Source: Omphalotus guepiniiformis | Lineage: Eukaryota > Basidiomycota > Agaricomycetes > Agaricales > Omphalotaceae | Length of the DNA: 64,000 nucleotides | Assembly: GCA_028554645.1 (NCBI GenBank) | Contig: JAQOOI010000070.1 | Span: forward strand, 1,798,001-1,862,000 | Reading direction: 5' to 3' | Shown here: one piece after another, positions 48,324-64,000 of the stretch | Layout of the letters: each line of letters begins with the position of its first letter | Numbering within the stretch: the first letter of the stretch is position 1 | The notes under the pieces: model-generated | The model's input: only the letters and a program-made list of their open reading frames with translations | Database searches by the model: none | What the model was told of the DNA's origin: nothing | Program-made: the position numbers and the translations under genes

Positions 48324-48777
48324 TGTCAGCGACTCGAGTTGTCAAACTCAAATAACCAAACACAAGAATCTCAGTTTCACACGAATAAGAGAAAAGCAGA
48401 AAATAGAATTGAGAAGAGGAATGATACAAAGATGTTATGCTAAGTACAAGTCTAAACTCGAGGAGTTATTGACAAGATCGAAGCTAAAGAAATATCTACC
48501 TAAGCGGACTTGTTATATACGTAAATAAAACCCTAAACCCTGGGCTATAACCCTTGACTAATCCACCGTGTGTCTACCATGAGTTCGATCGCCTCAAGTG
48601 TTTCATTAATGATCGTGATCGCCTTGAGGTCTACATGCTTGATCTCGATCATTATGCTACCTACGTGTGTATTTAATATAACCCTAGATCTATAACTTAA
48701 GATGCTATCTACTGATAATAAAAGTGTCCATATGTACAAACAATGAGATAAGATGAAAAAAGAAAATGTTCGTAACA
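48324..48777 (-). repeat. LTR A (3' LTR of the 48-54 kb chromovirus)
   Basis: 454 bp, matching 54140-54593 with one noticed difference. Its outer edge touches the pogo-like fragment at 48323. Confidence 0.9.
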
Positions 48778-48788
48778 TGACCCCCTCC

Positions 48789-51700
48789 TTAGGGACGATG
48801 TCCCCATCGTCCTAACTTCACTGCTAATGCTTCTGTTGGCATCTTCTTCGTTTCTACTACTTCCGTATATGCTTCAGGGATAGGTCGTAACAATGATGTC
48901 GGGAATAAGGAAATTGGAACCTCAATCTTTCTTAACTGAGGTGGTCGTGGTTTAGTGGGGAATTTTTTATGAAACTCTTCAATTGCTTCTTTTGCGTTTG
49001 CAAGGTTTGCTAATGGTTCCCATGTTTGTTCGTGCCGCGAGTATCCCTTCCATTGGACTTTGTATCCGAATCTCCCTCCCCTATATTTCCCTGAATCTAC
49101 TATCTCTTCCACTTCAAACTCCGGTTCTTCTCCTTCTATCACTGGTGGCGGATTATCATTCTTAGGCTGTTCGGGGAATTCAGGCGGATGATAGGGTGAC
49201 AGTAAAACTTCGTTAAAGACTGGATGTATCCTCTTCCAAGTCTTCGGTATCTTTAGTTGATACGACGTCGCTCCAACTTTCTTTACGACTTCAAAAGGAC
49301 CAAATCGTTTATCATCCAACTTCTTCATTGGTCGATCAGAAGTCAGGTTTGTCGCTTCAAGCCATACTTTGTCATTAGGCTTATATTTGACTGATGGTTT
49401 CCTCTTCTTGTCGTAATACCGAGTCATGTCTTCCTTTGCCTTCTTAAGCGCCGCCTCTACTTCGTCCCTGATCTTGATCATCTTATCGGCAAATTCCTGT
49501 GCTGTGGGATTTGCCGACGGAGTTCTTGGAGCTGTTCCCTTATACGGATGTCGTCCCATATCCGCATAGAACGGAGTAACACCCGTGGCTGAGTGTATCC
49601 TATCATTCAACACGAACTCTGCTGTTGGTAACCATTCATGCCAGTCGTTCTGATGTTGATTGATAAATAACCGGAGATAATGTTCAATCTCTTGGTTCAT
49701 CCGTTCCGTCTGTCCATTCGTCTGTGGGTGATATGCCGTTGTGAAGCTTCCTTGAATGCCTAATAACCGGTATAGTTCCTTCATGAATCGGGAATGACAT
49801 TGGGGTCCCCGATCATGAATAATCTTTCTCGGTAATCCGTGTATAGGAAAGATTTTGTCCCTATAGATTCTGGCCATTCCTTCAGACGTTAACGACATGT
49901 GTGTGGGTACCAGACGTGTTCGTTTCGTGAAATGATCCACAGTCACACTTATGGCATTAAAACCTCCAGCTTCCGGTAGTTCTCCGATCAGATCCGTTCC
50001 TATGACTTCCCAGGGACCTTGTGGAACATTGTTTGTGACTAGTGTTCCCGTTGGTTTGGTTCGATGAATCTTAGTGGCCTGACACTTTTCACACCCTTTA
50101 ACGTATTTCCGTACATCCTGAGTGATTCCCGGCCACCAATAGTTTCTCGTCACCAATTCCATGGTTTTGAACTGTCCTGGATGTCCCGTCAGAACGGTAT
50201 CATGATGTAGTCCGATGATCTTTCCCCGTAACCTATTATCAATAGGCACGTAAATCCTATCCTGCCACGTCACAATTCCTTCCTCTGACTCGACCCAATC
50301 CTTCTCTTTTCCTTCTAAAGCCTTATTCACTAGATTATCCTGCACTTTTGACTTTTTCTTGATAAGATCTAAGATCTCGTCCTCGGGCATCTCTAGTCTG
50401 TTGATCGAAAAAAGTTCCGGCTTTAAAAGTACCACATCCTCATTGTCTTTCTCCCCCGTCTCATGATTGGCCATCCTGGACAATGCATCTGGCTTTCCCA
50501 TCGACTTTCCAGGTTTATGAATCAGTGTAAAGTCGTATTCAGATAATTCAGTGATCCATCGGGCTTGTCGACAATTCAATTTCTGAGGTTTTTTGAAATA
50601 CTGAAGATTTTGATGATCTGTATAGATCTCAAATGACTCTTCCGCACCCATCAGATACTGTCTCCAATCTGCTAAGGAATCCATAATGGCCATCATTTCC
50701 TTATCATAGATCTCATAATTACGTTCCGTTTCATTTAGAGATCTAGATCTGAATGCAATAGGCCACCATTTTCCATCTATCTTTTGTGATAAGACAGCTC
50801 CGTTCGCATAATCTGAGGAATCTGCCTCGACTCTGAATTGCCCATGATCACGGGGTATGGTTAGAACAACTTCTTCGGCAATTCTACTTTTGAGTTCTTC
50901 GAATGCCTGCTGTTGCTGCTCTGTCCATTCCCACTTTGAATTCCCAGTCAGTGATGACAATGGTTTCGCCACTTGACTGAATCCTCGGATAAATCGTCGG
51001 TAGAAGTTGCAGAAACCCAAGAAGGACTGTACTTCCTTCTTGTTTCCTGGTATTTTCCATTCTTTTACCGCTTTGACTTTCTTTGGATCCATCCGCACTT
51101 GTCCGTTTCCTACAAACACTCCAAGGTACTCGACATTACTGGTCTCGAATTCGCACTTTTCAGGTCTAAGATACAACTTGTGTTGTCGTAATATATCTAA
51201 CACCTGTTTTACAATTGACTCGTGCTCTTCAATTGTATTTGTGAAAACCAAAATGTCGTCTAAGTACACCATGACATGACCTTCATTGATCAAATCCCTT
51301 AAGATATGATTCATGAACGCTTGGAAGGTCGCCGGAGAATTTGTAAGACCAAAGAACATAACCGTTGGTTCAAAGAGCCCCCGATTAGTCCTAAATGCCG
51401 CCTTCCACTCATCACCTTCTTTGATCCGGATATTATTGTATCCCCATCGAACATCCATTTTCGAAAATACTTTCGAGTCCTTCAGTTTATCAATGAGTTC
51501 TTGAATGAGCGGCAACGGGTATTTGTTCTTTATCGTTGCTTCATTCAACTTCCGATAATCCTGAACAGGTCGAAGTTTCCCATCTTTCTTTGCCACAAAG
51601 AAGAATGGTGAGGCCATCGGTGACTTTGATGGTCTAATTCGTCCAGATTTCAGATTTTCCTTAATGAACTCATCTAAAACTTTCTGTTCCGAAGGATTTA

Positions 51701-52883
51701 ATGGATAGACCTTGCAATCTACTGGCGTAAAGTCTGGCTTCAGCTCAATTGCATGGTCCCAGGGTCTTCGTTCGGGTAAATTTTGGAAATCGGCTTCATC
51801 AAAAACATCCTTGTACTCATTGACGTATTTGTCTGCTTTTGACTCAGTCTTTTTGCCCTTTCCAAAGTTCATACTTCGAAGATATCCATCCCAATTCAGG
51901 TAAAACAAGCGATCCCCTTCTTCCAGTTCCCGGACTTCAGCGTCGGATTCAGGTTTTAGGTAATATGGTATGTAACCACACTTCTTAGGACATCGGTCAA
52001 ACTTTAAGGTTGAGTCATTCCAATCTATATTGGGATTATGACGTCTTAACCAATCGAGTCCCAGAAATATGTCCGTTTTGCCCAAATTTGTAACAGCAAG
52101 TTCAATGCGTTCCGCATGATCTCCCATTACCAATCTGACTTCTATGAATCCTTCAATTGAACCGTCTTCGTTTAAGGTACCATCAGCATTGTATACCGGC
52201 ATCTTTACTGGTAATTTCTTAACAGTTAAGCCATGTCGCTCTACGAATTCTTTATTGACGCAAGAACCCGTTGCTCCACTGTCAAGTAATGCTGATGTCT
52301 CTATCTGCTTGCCACTCTCGATGTCTTCGATTGTAACAGACAACTTGAGATCTCTTCCTTTAGTACCTTTTACGAACCGCAAGTTTTTCTTAAGTGACTT
52401 TACGGCTGTGATGGCTTCGCTGATGTCCAATGACCGGATCTGGGCAACCGTTTCTTCTGATGCTTCCCTGGCCCGACAGGTTGGCATCCATGCTCTCAGA
52501 ATTCCCACCGCTTGTTCTGACTCATCCTCCCTTACTCTCTGCGCTATCCATTCTGGTGAATTCGGCGGATAACGTTCTCTCACAGGTTTTGAATCGGACT
52601 TTGTAGATACTGACGCAAATTTATTCTCAGGATGATTAAATACAAAGTGAAAATTGCTGTCCTTGTGATCTACACTAGACTGTTCCGATTCTAACTCAGA
52701 AGGACCTGTATTCACTTCTGAGCTCTGACAAAACCCGTATCCGATTTCAACCAGTTCAAGAACCAGCTCGGTGGCTGTTCTTCTTTCTTCTCTTCCTCCT
52801 GCACGTTCACCTGCCTCACTCTCTGACCCCGCTTCGCTGGACAATCCCGCGAGATGTGTCCCTTCTGTCCGCAATTGAAGCAC
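48789..52883 (-). CDS. pol: Pol polyprotein of the 48-54 kb chromovirus
   Basis: 1364 residues, open throughout. Protease LLDSGATGS; RT YLDDILVF; RNase H EADSSDYANG; integrase zinc domain (HHDTVLTGHPGQ...CEKCQATK); catalytic residues in GTDLIGELPE, HDRGPQCHS and TNGQTER; C-terminal chromodomain (EEIVDSGKYRGGRFGYKVQW). It lies in the -1 frame relative to gag and overlaps its end. It appears competent to encode all enzymatic functions. Confidence 0.93.
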   Translation of the reverse strand: MLQLRTEGTHLAGLSSEAGSESEAGERAGGREERRTATELVLELVEIGYGFCQSSEVNTGPSELESEQSSVDHKDSNFHFVFNHPENKFASVSTKSDSKPVRERYPPNSPEWIAQRVREDESEQAVGILRAWMPTCRAREASEETVAQIRSLDISEAITAVKSLKKNLRFVKGTKGRDLKLSVTIEDIESGKQIETSALLDSGATGSCVNKEFVERHGLTVKKLPVKMPVYNADGTLNEDGSIEGFIEVRLVMGDHAERIELAVTNLGKTDIFLGLDWLRRHNPNIDWNDSTLKFDRCPKKCGYIPYYLKPESDAEVRELEEGDRLFYLNWDGYLRSMNFGKGKKTESKADKYVNEYKDVFDEADFQNLPERRPWDHAIELKPDFTPVDCKVYPLNPSEQKVLDEFIKENLKSGRIRPSKSPMASPFFFVAKKDGKLRPVQDYRKLNEATIKNKYPLPLIQELIDKLKDSKVFSKMDVRWGYNNIRIKEGDEWKAAFRTNRGLFEPTVMFFGLTNSPATFQAFMNHILRDLINEGHVMVYLDDILVFTNTIEEHESIVKQVLDILRQHKLYLRPEKCEFETSNVEYLGVFVGNGQVRMDPKKVKAVKEWKIPGNKKEVQSFLGFCNFYRRFIRGFSQVAKPLSSLTGNSKWEWTEQQQQAFEELKSRIAEEVVLTIPRDHGQFRVEADSSDYANGAVLSQKIDGKWWPIAFRSRSLNETERNYEIYDKEMMAIMDSLADWRQYLMGAEESFEIYTDHQNLQYFKKPQKLNCRQARWITELSEYDFTLIHKPGKSMGKPDALSRMANHETGEKDNEDVVLLKPELFSINRLEMPEDEILDLIKKKSKVQDNLVNKALEGKEKDWVESEEGIVTWQDRIYVPIDNRLRGKIIGLHHDTVLTGHPGQFKTMELVTRNYWWPGITQDVRKYVKGCEKCQATKIHRTKPTGTLVTNNVPQGPWEVIGTDLIGELPEAGGFNAISVTVDHFTKRTRLVPTHMSLTSEGMARIYRDKIFPIHGLPRKIIHDRGPQCHSRFMKELYRLLGIQGSFTTAYHPQTNGQTERMNQEIEHYLRLFINQHQNDWHEWLPTAEFVLNDRIHSATGVTPFYADMGRHPYKGTAPRTPSANPTAQEFADKMIKIRDEVEAALKKAKEDMTRYYDKKRKPSVKYKPNDKVWLEATNLTSDRPMKKLDDKRFGPFEVVKKVGATSYQLKIPKTWKRIHPVFNEVLLSPYHPPEFPEQPKNDNPPPVIEGEEPEFEVEEIVDSGKYRGGRFGYKVQWKGYSRHEQTWEPLANLANAKEAIEEFHKKFPTKPRPPQLRKIEVPISLFPTSLLRPIPEAYTEVVETKKMPTEALAVKLGRWGHRP

Positions 52884-53605
52884 TGCCCATTCCTTCGGGC
52901 CGCGTCAATGTCCATGGGTTTACCTATACCCCCAAAGGTTGTTCCTGTGGCGTCTCTCCGATCACCACTTCCTGCCGCCTGTTGCGGACTTTCTCTTCTT
53001 GGCGTAAACGCCGGTCGGTTCTGGTTCTGATTCTTGCGCCATTCCTGACGCCTTCTCCATAGTTGATCAATCTTGATCACTATGTCCTTCCATTCGTCGT
53101 ACACTTTGGGCAACTCGTCCCTCGTGTAAATGGCATCAATTGTTTTCTCATTAATGCCCTTCTCGATGAGCCGCACCACGTACGGGTCATCCTTCTTGTA
53201 ATCCGCCTCCGTCAACAGTATCTCCAACTCCTGGAAATACTCCTCTGCCGTTCCCGCTCCCTGCTTCAACAACTCCACCTTCTCCTGCGCTGTCCTCTGC
53301 AGACCGGAATCTAGGAACGCCTTGTTCAAGGCTTGCTTGAATTGCGCCCAGTCCTTCTGCCACTTCTCGTTGTCTTGGTCAAAATGGGTGTTGTAGTAAT
53401 TATTCACCCATCCGTCCACAAGCTTTCCATTCATGAAAGAGATTGCAACATCAATCCTTTCATCGTCAGTCGTGATACCATTTTTCTTATCACGAATGTA
53501 TGTAAAGAGCCTTCGACGCCAATTCTTGAACTCAGATTTGACGCCAGTGAAGTTGTCGGGTTTGTTGAGGAGTGATTTCCCTCGCGAGGTGTCGATTTCA
53601 GACAT
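52712..53605 (-). CDS. gag: Gag protein of the 48-54 kb chromovirus
   Basis: 297 residues. A capsid-like region (KPDNFTGVKSEFKNWRRRL, then AFLDSGLQRTAQEKVELL) is followed by a classical CCHC knuckle CFNCGQKGHISRDC near residue 240. The last residues include the GGGTTTT slippery heptamer, five codons before the stop. Confidence 0.9.
   Translation of the reverse strand: MSEIDTSRGKSLLNKPDNFTGVKSEFKNWRRRLFTYIRDKKNGITTDDERIDVAISFMNGKLVDGWVNNYYNTHFDQDNEKWQKDWAQFKQALNKAFLDSGLQRTAQEKVELLKQGAGTAEEYFQELEILLTEADYKKDDPYVVRLIEKGINEKTIDAIYTRDELPKVYDEWKDIVIKIDQLWRRRQEWRKNQNQNRPAFTPRRESPQQAAGSGDRRDATGTTFGGIGKPMDIDAARRNGQCFNCGQKGHISRDCPAKRGQRVRQVNVQEEEKKEEQPPSWFLNWLKSDTGFVRAQK
52730..52736 (-). promoter_or_regulatory. 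-1 ribosomal frameshift heptamer GGGTTTT
   Basis: In the gag frame the sense strand reads ACG GGT TTT GTC, so G GGT TTT fits X XXY YYZ. The -1 frame is pol. The position is equivalent to the GGGAAAA site of the 23-29 kb element, just before the gag stop. Confidence 0.7.
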
Positions 53606-54139
53606 TCTGATAGGGGTAGAAGGTCGGGTAGAATAGGGAGATGATGCAAGAGATTTGTAGGAAGGTGTGATAGGTGATGGGATAGTGGTTTCTTCGAAGA
53701 GACTGCTAAAGTTCCCCCAAGATTCCGTAATGGTAGAGTTTACTTCGGTCCGTCAGTAACCTCACGAAGAGATTTCGGGACCTTTTCTACCTCTAATAGA
53801 CGAGTTCCTAATCTGTGCTTGCTTGCTGAGTAAACCTGGGCGTGCCTTTCTAGGAGTGCACCTCGTTCCCCAAGCGCAAGGTCCCCTCCCCGAAGGTTGG
53901 TTATCAGACGATGCTTTCTGCTGCCAGTACCAAGTCGGACTCAACGTTACTCGTTTGTACTATAGGCGCAATTACTCTAATGGAGCACAGATTCCTAATT
54001 CGGACGGAAACCCGAATATCAAAGGGAGAAAATGAAGTAAGCGTGTGAAGGGTCAAGAGAAACTTACTTGCTACTGAAATAGCAACAAGAAGGCGATTTG
54101 AATTGTGTTGGTCGGGTGAGTTGTGTAGCTTCGATCTTA
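53606..54139 (-). other. 5' untranslated region of the chromovirus
   Basis: Lies between the 5' LTR and the gag ATG. No gene is seen. No obvious TGG-starting primer-binding site directly follows the LTR. Confidence 0.6.
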
Positions 54140-54593
54140 TGTCAGCGACTCGAGTTGTCAAACTCAAATAACCAAACACGAGAATCTCAGTTTCACACGA
54201 ATAAGAGAAAAGCAGAAAATAGAATTGAGAAGAGGAATGATACAAAGATGTTATGCTAAGTACAAGTCTAAACTCGAGGAGTTATTGACAAGATCGAAGC
54301 TAAAGAAATATCTACCTAAGCGGACTTGTTATATACGTAAATAAAACCCTAAACCCTGGGCTATAACCCTTGACTAATCCACCGTGTGTCTACCATGAGT
54401 TCGATCGCCTCAAGTGTTTCATTAATGATCGTGATCGCCTTGAGGTCTACATGCTTGATCTCGATCATTATGCTACCTACGTGTGTATTTAATATAACCC
54501 TAGATCTATAACTTAAGATGCTATCTACTGATAATAAAAGTGTCCATATGTACAAACAATGAGATAAGATGAAAAAAGAAAATGTTCGTAACA
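54140..54593 (-). repeat. LTR B (shared by two chromovirus copies)
   Basis: 454 bp. It serves as 5' LTR for the 48324-54593 unit and as 3' LTR for the truncated copy at 54594-55398. Confidence 0.9.
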
Positions 54594-55398
54594 TGACCCC
54601 CTCCTTAGGGACGATGTCCCCATCGTCCTAACTTCACTGCTAATGCTTCTGTTGGCATCTTCTTCGTTTCTACTACTTCCGTATATGCTTCAGGGATAGG
54701 TCGTAACAATGATGTCGGGAATAAGGAAATTGGAACCTCAATCTTTCTTAACTGAGGTGGTCGTGGTTTAGTGGGGAATTTTTTATGAAACTCTTCAATT
54801 GCTTCTTTTGCGTTTGCAAGGTTTGCTAATGGTTCCCATGTTTGTTCGTGCCGCGAGTATCCCTTCCATTGGACTTTGTATCCGAATCTCCCTCCCCTAT
54901 ATTTCCCTGAATCTACTATCTCTTCCACTTCAAACTCCGGTTCTTCTCCTTCTATCACTGGTGGCGGATTATCATTCTTAGGCTGTTCGGGGAATTCAGG
55001 CGGATGATAGGGTGACAGTAAAACTTCGTTAAAGACTGGATGTATCCTCTTCCAAGTCTTCGGTATCTTTAGTTGATACGACGTCGCTCCAACTTTCTTT
55101 ACGACTTCAAAAGGACCAAATCGTTTATCATCCAACTTCTTCATTGGTCGATCAGAAGTCAGGTTTGTCGCTTCAAGCCATACTTTGTCATTAGGCTTAT
55201 ATTTGACTGATGGTTTCCTCTTCTTGTCGTAATACCGAGTCATGTCTTCCTTTGCCTTCTTAAGCGCCGCCTCTACTTCGTCCCTGATCTTGATCATCTT
55301 ATCGGCAAATTCCTGTGCTGTGGGATTTGCCGACGGAGTTCTTGGAGCTGTTCCCTTATACGGATGTCGTCCCATATCCGCATAGAACGGAGTAACAC
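54594..55398 (-). mobile_element. Truncated second copy of the chromovirus (pol 3' end only)
   Basis: Repeats 48778-49582 with no difference I could see: polypurine tract, chromodomain and integrase C terminus. It breaks off at 55398, just after the residues GVTPFYADMGRHP are encoded, and runs into unrelated sequence. The missing 5' part, including an LTR, is not in the window. Confidence 0.88.
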
Positions 55399-55569
55399 CT
55401 CCCAGGTCCGAAGTCTCAAGTCCGACCCTGCCCCTCGGAGTGAGATGTGTCCGAATTTTCAACATCGACCAAATCCTGCCAAACAATAGATTGGTATAAA
55501 AGCCTAGCCTGCAAACCTCTAAGTTCCCCCCAACCCCGCACTCCTCAACCCCGTAAGCTCAACACAAAA

Positions 55570-57052
55570 ATGCCAGCAACTCGAGCCAACACCCCCACGT
55601 TCGAAACTGAATACCCCCTTCCGGCACCATTCGGACGTCCGGAACCTGAACCCCGCGTAAAGCCTGCATTGCCTCGAAGGAAGACACCGGAGAATGCGGA
55701 GGAGTTTGATAGAATAAAATTGGCGATTGCCATGGGTAAGTTTTTTCTGTCCGCGGATGTCCGATACTCAATGTCCTTTTTAGTTGAACAGGAGGAGGAT
55801 AGGGAGTGGGCCGAATACGACAAGGCAAAGAATGAGTGGACAGAGGAAGTCCGGAGGATTCAGGAGTGGCGTCAGGAGGCGCAAGAGAAGTGGAGGGCGG
55901 AGGAGCGAGAACGAAGGAGGAGAGAAGTTGAGGAGGCACAGAGAATTTTGGATGAGGAGAAACGGAGGGCCGAGGAGGAGAGTGAGGCGGAGGAGGAGAG
56001 GAAAGCCAGGAGGGCTATTGAGAAGGCCGAGGAAGCAAGGAGAAGGAAGGAGAAGAGGGACAGAAAGAGGAAAGCGCAAGAGGAACCGGAGGCCGGTGGG
56101 TCTCCTAAGAGAAAGAGAAAAAATGTGGTATCAGCGGTACGTGAACAAACATGAGTATTGGACTAGATTTATAACAAAATTTTAGTCTATTGTAATTTCA
56201 GATGGAGAAGAAGAAGAAGAGACCGGAGGTCCGAGCTCCCGACCCGCATGCCTGCAGTGTCGGGCACGACACTATCAATGTTCCGGGCGACCTCGGAACA
56301 CAAAATCTACTTCCTGCGACGAATGCAGGAAGCAAAAATCAAGATGCTCGTTTTCGGAGCGAGTCGGCGCTCCGAGCACCACCACCACTTCCCTATCTCC
56401 GGCTTCCCTCGAGCTGCTCATGCAGCAAAATGAAGAAATACTATCCCGGTTAGCTAGGTTAGAGAAGAAGGTCGAGGGACGAGCAGGAGAGCCTCGGGAC
56501 TCCGCGGAGCTCTCCGACTTGGACTTGGTGAACCGGCGGATCGATGACGTTGACGCCGCCGTCTACTCAACTAGAGAAGAGGTCTCTAGTTGGGGTGTAT
56601 TCTTGGCGGAACGGACCCGCGACTGGGCCCTTGCCTTGGGAATGGCAATGGGTGCCACGACTCCTGTTCAGGGGTCCTATATCATGAACCAGGCGATAAT
56701 CAACGCCTCGATCCGGCTCGCCGAAATGGGCCGGGAATTACACTTTGCTTGGGAGCGCGACCAAGCAGAGCGATCGGATGCCCGTCCGGAGGTGCGAGAG
56801 CCGACGTTGCCTAGTGTCATGAACAGTAGGATGGTGCAAGGAGTACTGGGCGGAGAGGCCGCTCAGTTGACTGAGTTTTTTGAGCAGGTGGACGAGATCT
56901 GTACGGGGCTCCGAGAAGTACCGGCAGAGAGGATCAGAGAAGAAGAGGAAACGAATACTCGCTATACCGCGGAGGAGCGAAAGATGTTCGCTGAAAGGCG
57001 AAAAGAAATTGAAAGACGACGGGAAGAGCGAGGAGGTCCGAGTAGGACATGA
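55570..57052 (+). CDS. Zn2Cys6 coiled-coil protein encoded antisense at the 3' side of a gypsy element
   Basis: Three exons, join(55570..55735,55784..56136,56186..57052), all GT-AG and in phase, give 461 residues. It starts MPATRANTPTFE. Residues of exon 2 form a long charged helix rich in Glu/Arg/Lys, ending in a basic PKRKRKN (possible nuclear localisation signal). Exon 3 opens with CLQCRARHYQCSG...CDECRKQKSRC; the spacing CX2CX6CX11CX2CX6C is the fungal Gal4-type binuclear zinc cluster. A leucine-spaced coiled coil (LELLMQQNEEILSRLARLEKKV) follows, as in dimerising Zn2Cys6 factors. The C terminus is helical and charged. It probably binds DNA. Whether it belongs to the transposon or is a captured host gene is unknown. 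Confidence 0.72.
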
Positions 57053-57258
57053 ATAGAGAAGGAGTTGTAGATAGAAAAGAAAAAAGAACTTGTATATAAT
57101 ATGTCTTTTGTTTTGTTTTTCTTGATAGCTTTTGTTTTGTTTTGTATAAAGAAATGTCTGTTTTTTATAACGAGATAAGCGTGATAGAAAGAGAGAGAGC
57201 AAAAGGGATAGAGAGAAAGAAAGAAACACCAAGACCGTCAACGTCCGAGGACGTCCGA

Positions 57259-60200
57259 TCAGATTGTCAACTTCGACAGAGGTCCAGGTTTGTCCGGATA
57301 TCGGACATGGAACTCCTGGATGTAGTCTTCAGCTGTGAGTTCATCAGCTAAGACCCATGAAAATTCTTCATCCGTCCCTTCATAACCAAGCCATTGCACA
57401 TAGTACAATAGCGGACACTTTCGGCGTCTCCGGTCCAGCTTGGAATCCAGTATCTGAGCAATCTCGTATTCAACTTCACCGTTGACCTCAACCGGCGGAG
57501 GCGGAGGTTGTGAACGGTTAGGAATGGTGTTGGGAGGTGCTGGTTCGAGTTGAGAGACATGGAATACTGGATGTACGGACCGGAGGTAGTCCGGAAGCTG
57601 TAGTGTATAAGCAAGGTTACTAGGTCGAGCTAGTATTTTGAATGGACCTAAATATTTCTCGGAAAATTTAGCTGTAGGACGAGTAGAACGAATGTGCTTA
57701 GCGTTAAGATATACTTCTGAGCCAATGGGCAGTTCCGGAGCCGAGGACCTCCGCCGGTCAGCTTGTTCCTTGTAACGAGTCTGAGCGAGAGTAATCTCAT
57801 CGCGTAGAAAAGCATGGAGCTCATCAAGGTTGACCACAAACTGTCGAGCCCGGTCGGATGCGAGGTCGTATTCCGGATGTATTGAAAGGTTTGGGTGATA
57901 ACCTTTGTTGGCAAAGAAGGGTGAAATACCAGTGGAGCTGTTCGGAGCGTTATTGTGTCAAAAGTAGGAATAAAAATGGCTTGCTTAGATGCCCTGTCTA
58001 CCACGACTAGAATGGCTGTAAAGCCATGAGAGTTCGGAAGTTGTTCAATGAAGTCCATAGATATGGAATCCCAAGGACGTTCCGGAACTGGGAGAGGTTG
58101 CAGAAGACCATAAGGACGGTGTCTACGGCTCTTGTTGCGACCGCAAACAGTGCAGGATTGCACGTAGGACCGGACGAACTCTCGGATCCGAGGCCAGGTA
58201 TACTGTCTTCGGATGACCTCGAGTGTCCGGTTCTGCCCAAAGTGTCCCGAGAGTGGATGGTCATGGAAATATCGAAGTACCTGAAGCCGTAAGTCACCCG
58301 AATCTGGAACATAGATGCGACCGTCGAGCCGGAGTTGTCCGGAGTTGTCTAAAGTCCAACGTTTGTTAGCATCATCATTGGCAAGTGACATACCTGCCTT
58401 GGACTCCGAGTCTGAAGCTAGTGATTCTCGGATCGACTGGTGTAGTTTGTCGAGGTCCATAATGATACTAGCGCGAAGGACTGGACCTTCTAGGAAGGTT
58501 GCTCGAAGTGAAGTCGATAGTTGTTCTTGGGTGAAAATCGGTTTCAGATTCTGTGGATTGACCGTAGCGTAAGTGCTATCTCCCTCTTTTGGGTAGACGT
58601 CCCAACGTCGAGTCAGAGCGTCAGGTTTTGCTCCGAGGCGTCCCGGTCGGAACCGGATTACCATATTAAAGTGAGACAAGTATTCACTCCATCTAACCTG
58701 TCGGCGCGTCAAGACCTTGGTAGTACTGAAGTACTCCAAGTTCTTATGATCTGTGACCACGTCGACCGGCGTTGCGGAGCCCTCCAAGTAATGCCGCCAG
58801 TGTTGGAAAGATTCAAAGATGGCGAGGAGCTCCTTGTCGTGGGTGTCGTAGTTGAGCTCGGCGGCATGAAGGGTCCGAGACAGGAATGCGACTGGATGGA
58901 TTTCTCCATCGTCCATACGAAGTGAAAGAATTGCCGCTATAGCGTAGTCCGAGGCGTCCGTTTCCAGGACTATCTGTCGGTCAGGTTCCCAGTGAGTTAA
59001 AACAGGAGCAGAAAGAAAAGCAGATTTAAGTGAATCAAAAGAATGTTGACACTCCTCGGACCATTTCCAAGGAATACCTTTGCGAGTAAGACGAGTTAGT
59101 GGAACCACGATACCAGAATAATTGAAAATGAAACGGCGGTAGAAATTGCAGAAACCAAGGAAGGACTGAATGTCTTTGATGCGTCCCGGTCGAGGAAGGG
59201 GCCAATCGATGATGGCCTTAACCTTCTCCTCGGACATCCGAAGACCGTCCGGTGACAGAATGTAACCGAGGTATTCAACAGTTTCGGAGTCGAAGACACA
59301 TTTGTTGGGATTGCAGAATAAGCCGTGCTTCCGGAGGCGTCGGAGAACTTCGCGGACATGTTTTCGATGGTCTGCTCGGTTGTCCGAATAGATTAGAACA
59401 TCGTCCAGGTAGACAATAACGTAGACATCTAGTAAGTCGGCAAATATTTCATTTACAAACCGTTGAAAAGCCGCCGGAGCATTGGTTAGTCCCTCGGGAA
59501 TGACCTTCCATTCGTAAGAGCCGTATCTGGTGCGGAAAGCAGTTTTCCATTCATCTCCCTCGGCGATCCGGACCAAGTGGTAAGCATGTCGAAGATCAAG
59601 CTTGGTATAGATTTTCGCCTTTTTAGGAGCGTCGAGGAGGTCGGAAATTAATGGTAAAGGATACCGGTCCTTGCGGGTAATCTTGTTCAAGCCACGAAAA
59701 TCTACACAGAGACGGAGTGAGCCATTCTTTTTAGGAACAAACAATACCGGCGCTCCATGTTTAGATGAAGAGGTCGTAATGAATCCGTTGGTGAGATGCT
59801 TGTCCAAGAAAGCCCTAAGGGCCTCTAGTTCCTTCGCGGACAGTGGGTAAACACGTCCGAGAGGAGGTTCAGCACCGTCCTCTAAGTCGATTTTAAGGTC
59901 GTAAGGGCGGTACGGTGGTAAGACTTCTGAAAGACCTTCATCAAAAACGTCAGCAAAATCGTGATACTCTTCCGGTATTCCGGAGAGATCAACAGGTGAA
60001 TGGATAGATGCTGCGTTACCAGTAACGGAGGCAACCGGACGTCCGTAGATCACAATGGGATCTTGTCCAGCTTCCTTGCAAGCCCGTATGAATGCTGCAG
60101 CACCAATAAAAGCAATATCCGGATCCGACGGGTCCGAAATTCTTGCTCCCATTTGCGTGACGGTTGGATATGAGTAGATGGGTTCAAAGGGAAAGTTCGC

Positions 60201-60785
60201 CTTCCGAGGACGAGGACGAGAGGTAGGTGTCGGAGATGCGTCGATGGACGCGACCTCAACCGGAGTTGAAGATGCAGCCTGCGGAATGGGAGATGGAACT
60301 GTTTGGTCAGTGTTTCGGAATGAAATAACTCCTGTGACCCAGTCAACCAACGGGTTGTAGCAGGTGAGAAAGTTGTATCCTAAAACAGCTTTACAAGACG
60401 AATCCAAAGAAGTGACAAAAAAGTCAAGAGACAAGGTCTCCCCGGAAGGAAATTGAACTGGTAAAGTAACTAGCTCTTCAATTAATGAAGAAGCGGTTGA
60501 ACCATCAAGAAGGCGTAGTCGAACCGGAGGAACCGGAGTTACCGGAAGAAAATAATCATGAACAAATTTTGAATCGAGGAAACTATGAGAAGAACCAGAA
60601 TCAAGTAACGTAGAAAATTTCAAAAATGAAGTAGACTGATTTTCGGGCTCCCTAACGAGGCCCTTGAGGCCCGAGGAGCTCCGATCGATACAAAGTGGTA
60701 ATACAAGTGAATCAGAGTGGTGTAAAAGAGCGGACGCGTTGAGAGTAACCTCGGAGATGACACGATCGTGGCCAACGCAACCCAA
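57259..60785 (-). pseudogene. pol: Pol of the defective gypsy element
   Basis: Protease LLDSGSSHS, RT YLDDVLIYSD, RNase H ETDASDYAIA and the integrase zinc domain (HDHPLSGHFGQ...CTVCGRNK) are intact in the 57648-60785 block. After MDFIEQLPNS and FIPTFDTI the frame jumps directly to sequence that normally follows the catalytic core. The second Asp and the Glu of the D,D-E triad are missing (roughly 80-90 codons), and the frame shifts. The remaining C terminus with its chromodomain is open at 57259-57837 (YEIAQILDSKLDRRRRKCPLLYYVQW). Integrase is therefore inactive. Confidence 0.85.
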
Positions 60786-60814: not shown

Positions 60815-62452
60815 CTATTTTTCCGACTCCTTTGGAGTCAGTTTGGGGTCCTCCGAAGTTACCTCCGAAGCTCGTCCACGAGCCTCGTTCAACTTCTTCC
60901 GCTTATCACAATTATCCATAGTATGATTACCTCCACAAAAGAAACATAACTTCAACTTCCGGCGCCTGTCCTTCTCCGCCTGCGTCAACTTCCCATCCTT
61001 CCCTAGCCTATCCGCGTATGGTTTTGGCGTGGTCGAAGAGGAATTTGTCTTGCCGGAGTTAGAACCGGAGCCAGAACCAGAACTAGATCCGGAGTTTCCG
61101 GAGTACGAGCGGTTGTTAGAGGAAGAGGAGGGCTTGTTGGGATTGCCACTCTTCTTCTTCTGCGAGCCAGATTGTGAAGTGGAGGAGCCACTTCCGGAGT
61201 TCCCGGAGCCTCCACCAGACGTCCGTTGTTCTCGCTGCTTTTCAGCAGAGCAAGCCCAGTAACGAGCATCGATCTTGGTGGCCTCTTTCCGGGTCCCCTG
61301 ATAGGTTTTCGGATACTCGATCCGCATTAGTTCGTCCTTAATACGAGATGGCAAACCTTGATAATAGGCCCAACATAAAGCAGCTTGATCCCAAAGAACC
61401 ATCGCTGCGTAGGCTCCGAACTTTACATTGTAATTACGGATTCGATCCGTATCCCTCATTTTGAGCCCACTGAGGCGTTGCTCAGCCTCCGCTTCCATAT
61501 CGTACTCTCCGAAATTTTCCATCAGCTCCTGCATGAAGGCCTGATAATTGACCATCCATGCCGGAGGATCGTCCGGATCCGGGTTCAGAAGCTCTGGCTG
61601 GAAATATTCCAGAGCTGATCCAGACAAATAAGAGAGCGCAAAAGTGATCTTACGATCGTCAGAAGAGAAATATTGAGGCCGATCTGAGTGGTGAAGGGCC
61701 AAGGAAATGATGAAGTTTCGGAGCTTCCGCGGGTCCGAGCCGTCAAAAACGTCTGGCTCCTTCAAGCGCGATTTGCTCTCCGGAGCTGCGGATGCCTGTG
61801 TATTAAATGCCCTAGCCATGTTAGTAAAACCAGCCATGCTAGTGGTAAGAAACTCCTGCATCATCCGCCTAAAATCTTCATCACCGGTGCCACCGGTACC
61901 CCCGGAAGGTTCCCCAGGACCTCCAGGACCACCCGGTCCACCGCCACCATTTCCACCTGGTCCTCCAGGCCCGCCAGGTCCACCCGGACCTCCATGGCCT
62001 GGTCCACCACCACCATTACCTTCATCGCCTTCTCCAGGATCCCCACCATTACCTCCTATTCCTTCTGGCTGATCACCAGCCTCTCCTTCCGTCGCCGCTG
62101 CGATAATGTCATCGTCTTCGTCATTCGGCTCTTCAGGAGCAGTGTCGGACATGTCTTCATGTATCGGTAAAACTCCCGGCATTGTGGAAGTTCGACGAGT
62201 CGGAGTTACCGGAGGATTTCGAAAACCAGGCAAATGACCTGGTGAAAATAATGTTGATAAAACCGGAGGTTGTTGAGAAAGGCGTGAGCCTCGGCTTGGT
62301 GAGACGAATTCGCTTGCGCGAACTGAGTAAAGACCGGATCTCCGCCGCTCACGAAGAGCATTGGGATCGCGACCTTGGTAAAATGGTGCGTGAGACTGTG
62401 AAGCCTCAAGTAAGGGGTTTGTAGGATGTTGTGACATGATCAATAGCAGCAC
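60815..62452 (-). CDS. gag: Gag protein of the defective gypsy element
   Basis: 545 residues. A Gly/Pro-rich collagen-like stretch of about 60 residues (positions about 130-190) precedes the capsid-like region (FDGSDPRKLRNFI, SALEYFQPE, GLKMRDTDRIRNYN). A Ser/Gly-rich linker follows, then the knuckle CFFCGGNHTMDNC (CX2CX3HX4C). The stop TAG follows GAA AAA. Pol is in the -1 frame and open from this point, so slippage on the A-run is possible. Confidence 0.85.
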   Translation of the reverse strand: MLLLIMSQHPTNPLLEASQSHAPFYQGRDPNALRERRRSGLYSVRASEFVSPSRGSRLSQQPPVLSTLFSPGHLPGFRNPPVTPTRRTSTMPGVLPIHEDMSDTAPEEPNDEDDDIIAAATEGEAGDQPEGIGGNGGDPGEGDEGNGGGGPGHGGPGGPGGPGGPGGNGGGGPGGPGGPGEPSGGTGGTGDEDFRRMMQEFLTTSMAGFTNMARAFNTQASAAPESKSRLKEPDVFDGSDPRKLRNFIISLALHHSDRPQYFSSDDRKITFALSYLSGSALEYFQPELLNPDPDDPPAWMVNYQAFMQELMENFGEYDMEAEAEQRLSGLKMRDTDRIRNYNVKFGAYAAMVLWDQAALCWAYYQGLPSRIKDELMRIEYPKTYQGTRKEATKIDARYWACSAEKQREQRTSGGGSGNSGSGSSTSQSGSQKKKSGNPNKPSSSSNNRSYSGNSGSSSGSGSGSNSGKTNSSSTTPKPYADRLGKDGKLTQAEKDRRRKLKLCFFCGGNHTMDNCDKRKKLNEARGRASEVTSEDPKLTPKESEK

Positions 62453-62471: not shown

Positions 62472-63010
62472 TGTTAAGTCCGTGCGGACTAGAGACGGTA
62501 AGAGAGCGAGGACCTCCGAGGAGGTCCGAGAGAAGGAGTCGAAAGGAACAAGACAAGATAACCAGGAGCTCCGAATTGCTCCGGCAACAAGACTTCACCC
62601 GGTAGGCAGTATTATTTCAATACTGCCCCCCGTGCTGCACCCGGATTGGAAGTCCGAGGAGAGATGAGAGTTTAGACGAGAAATTCAAGATAGTCGTCCA
62701 GAGACTAATTTGATTTAAAACTAAAGTATGTACAGTACAAACGTGAAGTATTTATATGAGTATTCTACCGGAGATACTCGGAGTAAATAAACAATAGTGT
62801 GAGAAAGAGTGAAACAAAAGAACAATAAGGACATGGAACGTCGGAGACGTTCGGATGTCCGGAGTAAAAAAGAATAATAAGAGCGAATAGGAAACCGTGA
62901 ATTTGTAAAGTGAACCATATGGAAAGATTGAATAGATGTCAGGAAGAAGAAATCAAAGAAGTTCTAGAAACCGGAGGTCTGACCCGGAGTTCCGGCGCAT
63001 AGCTGTAACA
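62472..63010 (-). repeat. Putative 5' LTR of the defective gypsy element
   Basis: A 539-bp non-coding segment between gag and the pogo-like fragment. On the minus strand it starts TGTTACAG and ends CTTAACA (terminal TGTTA/TAACA inverted repeat), as expected of an LTR. No second copy is in the window, so the boundaries rest on the termini and on where the pogo-like reading frame is lost. Confidence 0.6.
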
Positions 63011-63573
63011 GAGGTGGATGGAGTGTGGCCATGGCTTCAATATTGGTCGCATGCGTGTCTGTACTGTCTGTCTCAGAGTCGTTGTCATCGGATGACAATG
63101 ACAAATCTGCAGTTGAGGACTGATAGTCAGAGTCGTTGCTGTTGTCACTGTCTTCATTGACTGAATCTTCGTTCACGCTAGACTCCATTGTAAAATGAGT
63201 CTGAGGCCCGAAAATGTCATCATCGGATGAAACATCATATGCTCTTGGAAGTCGTGTTGGGAACGTGGCAGGAACATGCATGGTGGTGGATGATGCTTTA
63301 CTAGGTGCAAAGTCAGATTCTTTGAAGATTCCTGGGTCTAGTGGTCTGATCCCTGAATTTTTCCAGGCTTTGAGAATCGTGTTTGGGACAAAGGAGATTT
63401 TGCCTGCTGCCATGTACTCCTTTACAACATCTGCAAGCTGAATCCCTTCTCCCGTCTCATTGAGAATCAGGTCACAGCGTTTAAACCATGCGCTCTGCAA
63501 GGGGCTGAAGCAACCAACATCAAGAGGCTGGAGCCGATGCGTTGTTGCGTCAAAAAGCCTTTCAGTGCTGAAA
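63011..63573 (-). pseudogene. DDE (pogo-like) transposase fragment, upstream half of the split gene
   Basis: Encodes the end of a DDE_1-type endonuclease domain (THRLQPLDVGCFSPLQSAW, then VVKEYMAAGKIS, AWKNSGIRPLDPGIF) and an acidic Ser/Asp-rich linker, and loses its frame at the LTR boundary 63010. An AG acceptor lies near 63574 (ctgatag in sense). The D and E catalytic residues would lie upstream and are not seen in 63574-64000. Confidence 0.75.
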
Positions 63574-64000
63574 TCTATCAGATTGAAGTAAATATGGAAT
63601 GTTCAAGCATTGAAAACTGAACATAAAGGACTAGAGTCACCCCAGACTGCTAGTTAAGACATGAAACATACTTGTACTCACAATACCTAAGTGTAGTGTT
63701 TGCTACAGTACTAGATCTGGTGCTAAGCAACTGTGACCAATGGGTTATACAAAGAGATACTAGTTATGCCTCTCCAGATGTGTTGGAATTCCAATGTTCC
63801 ATACCAGATTGAGTTGGTCAGACCCACCCTCTAATAACTAGAGACTCTACCAAGTGTTGTTGACTGTAATCCAAGGGGTTGATGGATTTTCACTTCAATT
63901 GAACAACTATCTAAGTCCTTTGGACTGATCAAAAGTTCCAGCTGGTCTTGCTAACTAAGTTGGCACTACAAGATTGAATGCTGAGAATATGGGCAATCCT
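63574..64000. other. Right-edge stretch without recognised gene
   Basis: No clear coding frame. It may be intron, or sequence inserted upstream of the transposase fragment. It contains many ctagtt/actagt-like short motifs but no mapped repeat. Confidence 0.4.

Follow-up and report, generated by a model that had tools for sequence, protein, structure and literature searches.

The window analysed here, a 64,000-nucleotide stretch of the genome of Omphalotus guepiniiformis, contains a Ty3/gypsy chromovirus, which we have named TE1, that carries a gene for a Zn2Cys6 protein in antisense. The gene is on the plus strand, and gag and pol of TE1 are on the minus strand (Table 1). A three-exon gene running opposite to pol had been proposed in a sequence-only reading of this DNA, and it holds up: once two predicted introns of 48 nt (GTAAGT..TAG) and 49 nt (GTACGT..TAG) are removed, the frame is open for 461 codons, and its pooled dN/dS across copies is 0.09.

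Table 1. Features of TE1, its antisense gene and the elements compared with it; positions are those of the window unless a contig or locus is named
Feature	Position	Strand	Remarks
Antisense three-exon Zn2Cys6 gene	55570..57052	+	461 aa, predicted splice sites
Exons of the antisense gene	55570-55735, 55784-56136, 56186-57052	+	spliced frame without stop
Exon 3 start, SIVISDGEEEEE	56186..56221	+	SIVISD stretch
Zn2Cys6 cluster, CX2CX6CX11CX2CX6C	56249..56347	+	six cysteines
Upstream region of the antisense gene	55400..55569	+	TATAAAAG at 55495-55502
TE1 pol (RT, RNase H, integrase, chromodomain)	57259..60785	-	Pfam
TE1 gag	60815..62452	-	Pfam Retrotrans_gag and DUF4939 over cut-off
TE1 5' LTR, 539 bp, TGTTA..TAACA	62472..63010	-	recurs as paired LTRs
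Direct CGGA/TCCG pairs, 10 bp start to start	62515/62525, 62570/62580, 62769/62779, 62842/62852	.	LTR span 62515..62855
LTR and pol end of another gypsy family, at the expected place of the TE1 3' LTR	54140..55399	-	99.9% identical to 48324-49583
Second-family LTRs, 955 bp	C59:39508-40462 and 51008-51962		gene inside, 5-bp duplication
Second-family multi-exon antisense gene	L062 (C59:40801-43400) 1219-2402; L063 240-905	+ (L062); - (L063)	apparently coiled coil, IDLT/acidic tail

TE1 was assigned to the Ty3/gypsy chromoviruses on its gag, pol domains, chromodomain, paired LTRs and target duplications. In the window copy, the Pfam models for gag, RT, RNase H, H2C2 and Chromo were matched over the cut-off; the protease and rve models were below it in this copy, which is broken, and comparison with other copies indicates that ~0.29 kb of its integrase is missing near 57936-57962. 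The LTR singled out in the sequence-only reading does belong to the element, but it is the 5' LTR, and the window copy has no 3' LTR because the sequence at the expected place is the end of another gypsy element, fused at 55400. That neighbouring region, 48324-55399, consists of a gypsy element with identical 300-bp LTRs and a partial second copy, the two having the LTR at 54140-54439 in common, and this tandem pair ends at the junction with TE1 (55399/55400). On the other side, beyond the 5' LTR, parts of 63539-63998 recur beside or within the TE1 loci L010, L018, L028, L029 and L030, and an ORF at 62964-63500 looks like the end of a transposase.

A search of the source genome (42.5 Mb in 80 contigs, the counts of places being lower bounds) found the gene at 30 places with loci, plus two short fragments; the genome has ~29 copies. 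The position in the 3' internal region of a gypsy element, as originally proposed, was confirmed by the order 3' LTR-gene-pol, with the gene antisense to pol, at 26 of the 30 places; the exceptions are the window copy, the truncated L029, and L028 and L030 on contig C46, which look like one split copy. Conversely, a gene place was found beside every pol place that covers the 3' part of pol in full (27/27). At least 15 LTR pairs (30 places) were recognised among the best 40 of 64 candidates, delimiting elements of ~8.4-8.5 kb, and the target duplications were perfect and 5 bp long in all five insertions tested. The antisense gene is a standing part of TE1, located between pol and the 3' LTR.

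The protein encoded by the antisense gene is kept by purifying selection. The alignment comprised 27 near-full sequences, namely the window copy (locus L001) and L002-L027, with L028-L030 excluded, and the spliced frame was open in 19 of them. Among 25 distinct sequences, broken copies included, the 261 pairs that differ by 3% or more were pooled, for which the NG86 method gave a dS of 0.348 and a dN of 0.031. Divergence in the introns (0.135) is lower than dS, which may therefore be overestimated; dN is about a quarter of the intron divergence. By part, dN/dS was 0.12 in exon 1, 0.05 in exon 2, 0.19 in the motif plus cluster and 0.08 in the C-terminal part, and 7 of 11 distinct exon indels were multiples of three. 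Conservation of the cysteines, which had been put forward as a check, was upheld in that all six are invariant across 10 aligned rows (five from elements and five from free-standing genes), but the motif plus cluster is also the part with the highest dN/dS.

The predicted protein begins with a proline-rich segment, continues with a long charged stretch in exon 2 that looks like a coiled coil by eye, and then has the SIVISD stretch with acidic residues, the cluster and a helical C-terminal part. SIVISD is found in 24 of the 27 gene copies, the remaining three being printed out of frame, and together with the acidic residues that follow we take it to resemble a SUMO-interacting motif. Zn2Cys6 domains (PF00172) have the spacing CX2CX6CX5-12CX2CX6-8C, within which the cluster of the antisense protein falls. 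The cluster named in the sequence-only reading is thus present as a pattern, and the Pfam model Zn_clus was matched narrowly over its cut-off of 21 bits (22.5 bits with exon 3, 21.6 bits with the whole protein). This match covers profile positions 1-15 only, and it is the second cysteine triad of the protein that matches the start of the model; at E 0.1, no other Pfam domain was found in the whole 461 aa. By sequence, the best PDB match was the DNA-binding domain of Leu3 (E 0.0028). The structure model of exon 3 (pLDDT 71.8) contains long helices, and its fold matches were headed by Pho7 (E 0.57), with Leu3 in fourth place (E 1.6) and unrelated helical proteins between them; none was significant, every fold match having an E above 0.5. 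The cysteine pattern is shared with Leu3, Pho7, Hap1 and Gal4, from all of which the TE1 protein differs in being encoded by a retrotransposon.

The region upstream of the gene contains TATAAAA in 26 of 27 copies, and divergence among copies is lower in this region (0.058) than in the introns (0.135). The TATAAAA site is suggestive of a promoter belonging to the gene itself.

TE1 is rich in the tetramer CGGA/TCCG from end to end, beyond what codon usage accounts for. Compared with 60 dinucleotide shuffles of each segment, CGGA/TCCG was the most enriched tetramer in the LTR (17 observed vs 4.4), in gag (45 vs 16.7) and in pol (81 vs 36.7), and the second most enriched in the antisense gene (36 vs 18.6), while it ranked 18th in the gypsy element at 48324-54439 and 96th in the first 12 kb of the window. 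The observed count was reached by none of 500 codon shuffles for TE1 pol, gag, the integrase end or exon 3, as against 140 of 500 for the pol of the other gypsy element. The window has 13 stop-to-stop frames that reach 300 codons, and among them the z scores were 5.5 for TE1 pol and 4.1 for gag, 1.8 for the next frame and at most 0.7 for the rest. Per kb, there were 31.5 sites in the LTR, 24.5 in gag-pol, 24.3 in the gene and 23.5 upstream of it, and 18 to 26 in thirteen other TE1 copies, compared with 6.6 in window positions 1-44000, 8.7 in the other gypsy element, 8.2 in L061, an array of free-standing zinc-cluster genes, and 2.7 and 4.2 in pieces of a second gypsy family described below. 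The spacer between gene and pol (57053-57258) was low, at 9.7 per kb (2 sites). On the sense strand, four segments together contained TCCG 100 times and CGGA 79 times. An RNA-level cause of the excess was considered and set aside, as the richness of both strands argues for double-stranded DNA, without proving it.

Within the LTR, four direct pairs of sites are spaced 10 bp apart, start to start, for which random placement gave a P of 0.0002 at this spacing and of 0.0028 at any one spacing from 5 to 30; in order of position, the pairs are exact in 21, 20, 27 and 4 of 28 LTRs. Comparison of the gene and its immediate surroundings over nine copies showed window CGGA/TCCG sites kept 309 of 377 times and other CpG tetramers 1857 of 2749 times, these being counts of overlapping words in which amino-acid constraint is still included. 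The proposal that the protein controls its own LTR would gain from the excess of CGGA/TCCG and the spaced pairs, but the motif positions within the LTR diverge more than the rest (0.0255 vs 0.0174); LTR CpG positions diverge less inside the motifs (0.0385) than outside them (0.0601). The majority of the sites fall within coding sequence, which is not the pattern of a simple promoter. Well-studied Zn2Cys6 factors are described, in the section of PMC5559640 cited here, as typically binding paired CGG triplets as coiled-coil dimers, and CGGA/TCCG contains the CGG triplet typical of such sites. From this habit of the zinc-cluster family, we infer that the antisense protein may bind the CGGA sites.

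A protein search of the genome identified relatives of the antisense protein at ~30-52% amino acid identity on contigs C15, C1, C4, C13, C78, C5 and C41, and none of the 150 pol places scored is situated within 10 kb of these free-standing genes. A tandem array of free-standing zinc-cluster genes is found at L061 and L064. Arrays were likewise seen at L065 and L066, and one member (L064, 3402-4421) apparently has no cluster. In two of the free-standing genes, A and B, candidate introns fall at corresponding positions and TATA-like sites occur upstream, and the leader of A is similar by eye to that of the TE1 gene. Zn_clus scored 26.7 bits for B, above the cut-off of 21, and 14.2 and 12 bits for A and F, below it. 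The array member at the start of contig C78 (L083) is cut off at telomeric repeats, and no telomeric array was found at the other contig ends tested, on C13, C15 and C1. In a tree of 12 proteins, those of TE1 grouped together (72/81), and 6 of 9 inner branches were left open; the free-standing arrays are 29-52% identical to the window copy, compared with 89-97% for the element rows. The antisense gene is probably host-derived. The idea of a host regulator picked up by the element is favoured by outside relatives that have introns and a similar upstream region and lie away from gypsy pol, but the tree leaves the direction open, and host capture is therefore favoured by layout rather than proven. 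Related elements without the gene, combined with the gene standing alone at orthologous host loci, had been named as evidence that would count against the element's having such a gene. Only part of this is seen: another gypsy family in the window does lack it, but the genes outside the element are paralogues that have diverged and do not represent this gene at orthologous positions.

Beyond this genome, no relative of the antisense protein was found at E 0.001 in the protein collection, either among 3123 candidates with exon 3 as the query or among 7999 scored with the 10-row alignment, although in the same collection 7653 of 7976 candidates for the TE1 pol query passed this threshold. Since pol relatives are present there, the lack of matches may mean that other genomes do not have the gene, that it has escaped annotation or that the word filter did not catch it. 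Seven of the 120 pol matches listed name a species, of which six are mushroom-forming fungi (Lentinula edodes, 77%) and one is filed as a Chlamydiales bacterium. Viral contigs gave no match for the antisense protein or for pol. Genome contigs gave two 39% pol relatives in bacterial assemblies, in one of which (L070) no antisense gene of the TE1 kind was seen; the contigs of L070 and L071 are filed as Mycobacterium and Akkermansiaceae, and their gypsy pol is probably contamination.

In the more distant gypsy element at 48324-54439, just 165 bp separate pol from the LTR, and no antisense gene of this sort is present. A second gypsy family, whose pol is the next closest to that of TE1 (41-43% identical at the integrase end), has an antisense gene directly after pol, on the opposite strand at 13 of 13 places; its 13 strong places pair one to one with 13 pol places, and there are four weak fragments besides. 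Between three subfamilies, the last exon of this gene has 62-64% identity; it closes, in all three aligned rows, with an IDLT stretch and acidic residues, which we again assume to resemble a SUMO-interacting motif. Its dN was 0.26-0.28 at a dS of 1.5-1.8, which is near saturation, and the model of its protein had a pLDDT of 52 and was set aside. A common origin of the two antisense proteins was considered and found to be unsupported (hhalign probability 0.4%). The second family suggests that genes have come to occupy this slot, after pol and before the 3' LTR, on more than one occasion.

Earlier work has already described antisense genes in this slot. The relevant sections of two papers describe such genes (aORF-3R) between pol and the 3' LTR in Grande (gene23), RIRE2, Retand (TRP28) and PvRetro13 (PMC7264820, PMC11963269), and a fungal case is brtn of Boty, according to the sections cited (PMC11963269, PMC8365987). 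The Grande protein is reported there to be nuclear and to have its own promoter (PMC7264820, PMC11963269). The pertinent passages of the 2020 review describe aORF-3R proteins as having no clear similarity to others, with similar genes outside elements lacking, and the function and origin of antisense genes of LTR retrotransposons as unknown (PMC7264820); the sections cited of a survey mark an additional ORF of unknown function, with no strand given there, in some fungal gypsy elements (PMC2864245). As far as these passages go, the TE1 gene resembles the aORF-3R in place, orientation, presence in most copies and conservation of the protein, and differs in its recognisable Zn2Cys6 cluster, its outside relatives and the candidate sites in the element. 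What is new is the transcription-factor domain, the outside relatives and the element-wide candidate sites. No LTR retrotransposon with a Zn2Cys6 gene in antisense was found among the literature matches listed, a search of titles and abstract openings with most subscription papers outside its scope.

A parallel for the candidate sites is offered by the VANC proteins, described in the parts of two papers cited here as sequence-specific DNA-binding anti-silencing proteins encoded by VANDAL elements of Arabidopsis, with a short motif that is dense in their own transposon family and rare in others (PMC5735166, PMC10398659). By this partial account, the candidate site of TE1 is likewise concentrated in the family that carries it (24.5 per kb in gag-pol vs 6.6 and 8.7 in the window controls), but VANDAL is a plant DNA transposon with its motif in non-coding tandem repeats, whereas the TE1 sites are in coding DNA and the LTR. 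Anti-silencing is demonstrated for VANC and would be a conjecture by analogy for TE1, and we draw the likeness without any claim of homology. For want of non-coding tandem repeats carrying the motif, TE1 was not filed as a VANC-like member.

HBZ of HTLV-1 is a bZIP protein, unlike the TE1 protein, whose 461 aa matched only Zn_clus at E 0.1. The cited section of one paper presents HBZ as a nuclear regulator whose gene lies in antisense in the 3' end region of an LTR element (PMC11963269), and that of another places the HTLV antisense promoter inside the 3' LTR (PMC7264820). On that description TE1 differs, its TATA-like site being between the LTR and the gene.

Our preferred reading, to which we give about even chances, is that the antisense gene encodes an accessory regulator of TE1, probably of host origin, which would bind the element that carries it and either control or protect the expression of that element. 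A whole gene of the Zn2Cys6 family, with its promoter and introns, would have entered an ancestral element in antisense. Its introns would have survived because the sense genomic RNA would not splice them, and their retention in the DNA fits, we infer, a gene spliced only from the antisense transcript. The gene would be transcribed from its own TATA promoter, and the protein would pair via its helices and bind CGGA half-sites, whose density peaks in the LTR, where they form direct repeats, with element-specific transcriptional control or protection from silencing as the outcome. We think that one of these would be the likeliest role, by analogy with the VANC proteins. With sites spread through its coding DNA, the element could as plausibly be coated along its whole length as controlled at a promoter, and activation and repression appear equally compatible with the data.

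Other roles have to be weighed against this one. The protein could have its targets in the host, as is presumably the case for the free-standing family, with the CGGA excess being a codon-context or mutational habit of the lineage; this would agree with the location of most sites in coding DNA and with the near-background density of array L061 (8.2 per kb), from which it follows that the gene family needs no such surroundings. Since the same tetramer leads in the LTR, gag and pol separately, and codon usage was fixed in the shuffles, we consider this account unlikely. Less probable still is that the protein is a targeting factor, which would tether cDNA or integrase to particular places in the genome, for instance CGGA sites in older copies or SUMO-modified chromatin, rather than regulate transcription. 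Element-wide sites would suit self-targeting, and the SUMO-interacting-like stretch in 24 of 27 copies is matched by the IDLT and acidic end in 3 of 3 rows of the second-family protein; against it, TE1 pol already has a chromodomain, and no common motif was seen by eye in the five target duplications. That the antisense RNA alone matters, through double-stranded RNA or self-limitation, with the protein incidental, is a possibility raised for plant antisense ORFs in the review section cited above (PMC7264820), and is very improbable here, as the pooled dN/dS of 0.09, together with exon indels that are mostly multiples of three, speaks for selection on the protein.

The origin could also be the reverse, with the free-standing arrays deriving from the retrotransposon gene, in which case its role in the element may be the same. 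The six of nine open inner branches leave room for this, and one member of the arrays ends abruptly at telomeric repeats, where mobile DNA collects. We nevertheless judge it somewhat unlikely, because diversity is greater in the arrays than among the element copies (29-52% vs 89-97% identity), both gene A and gene B contain introns and are preceded by TATA-like sites, and 0 of 150 scored pol places lie within 10 kb of the arrays.

A bolder extension of the accessory-regulator reading, which we regard as doubtful, is that the retrotransposon, having taken over a zinc-cluster gene, would have moulded its LTR and its coding DNA until both were densely set with sites for the protein, which would then mark or shield every copy of the element, combining self-recognition with anti-silencing, while a second family would have placed an unrelated protein in the same slot. 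In TE1, an antisense gene comes with a DNA-binding domain that can be recognised, with relatives elsewhere in the genome and with candidate sites in the element's LTR, and through it the function and origin of the antisense genes of LTR retrotransposons become testable.
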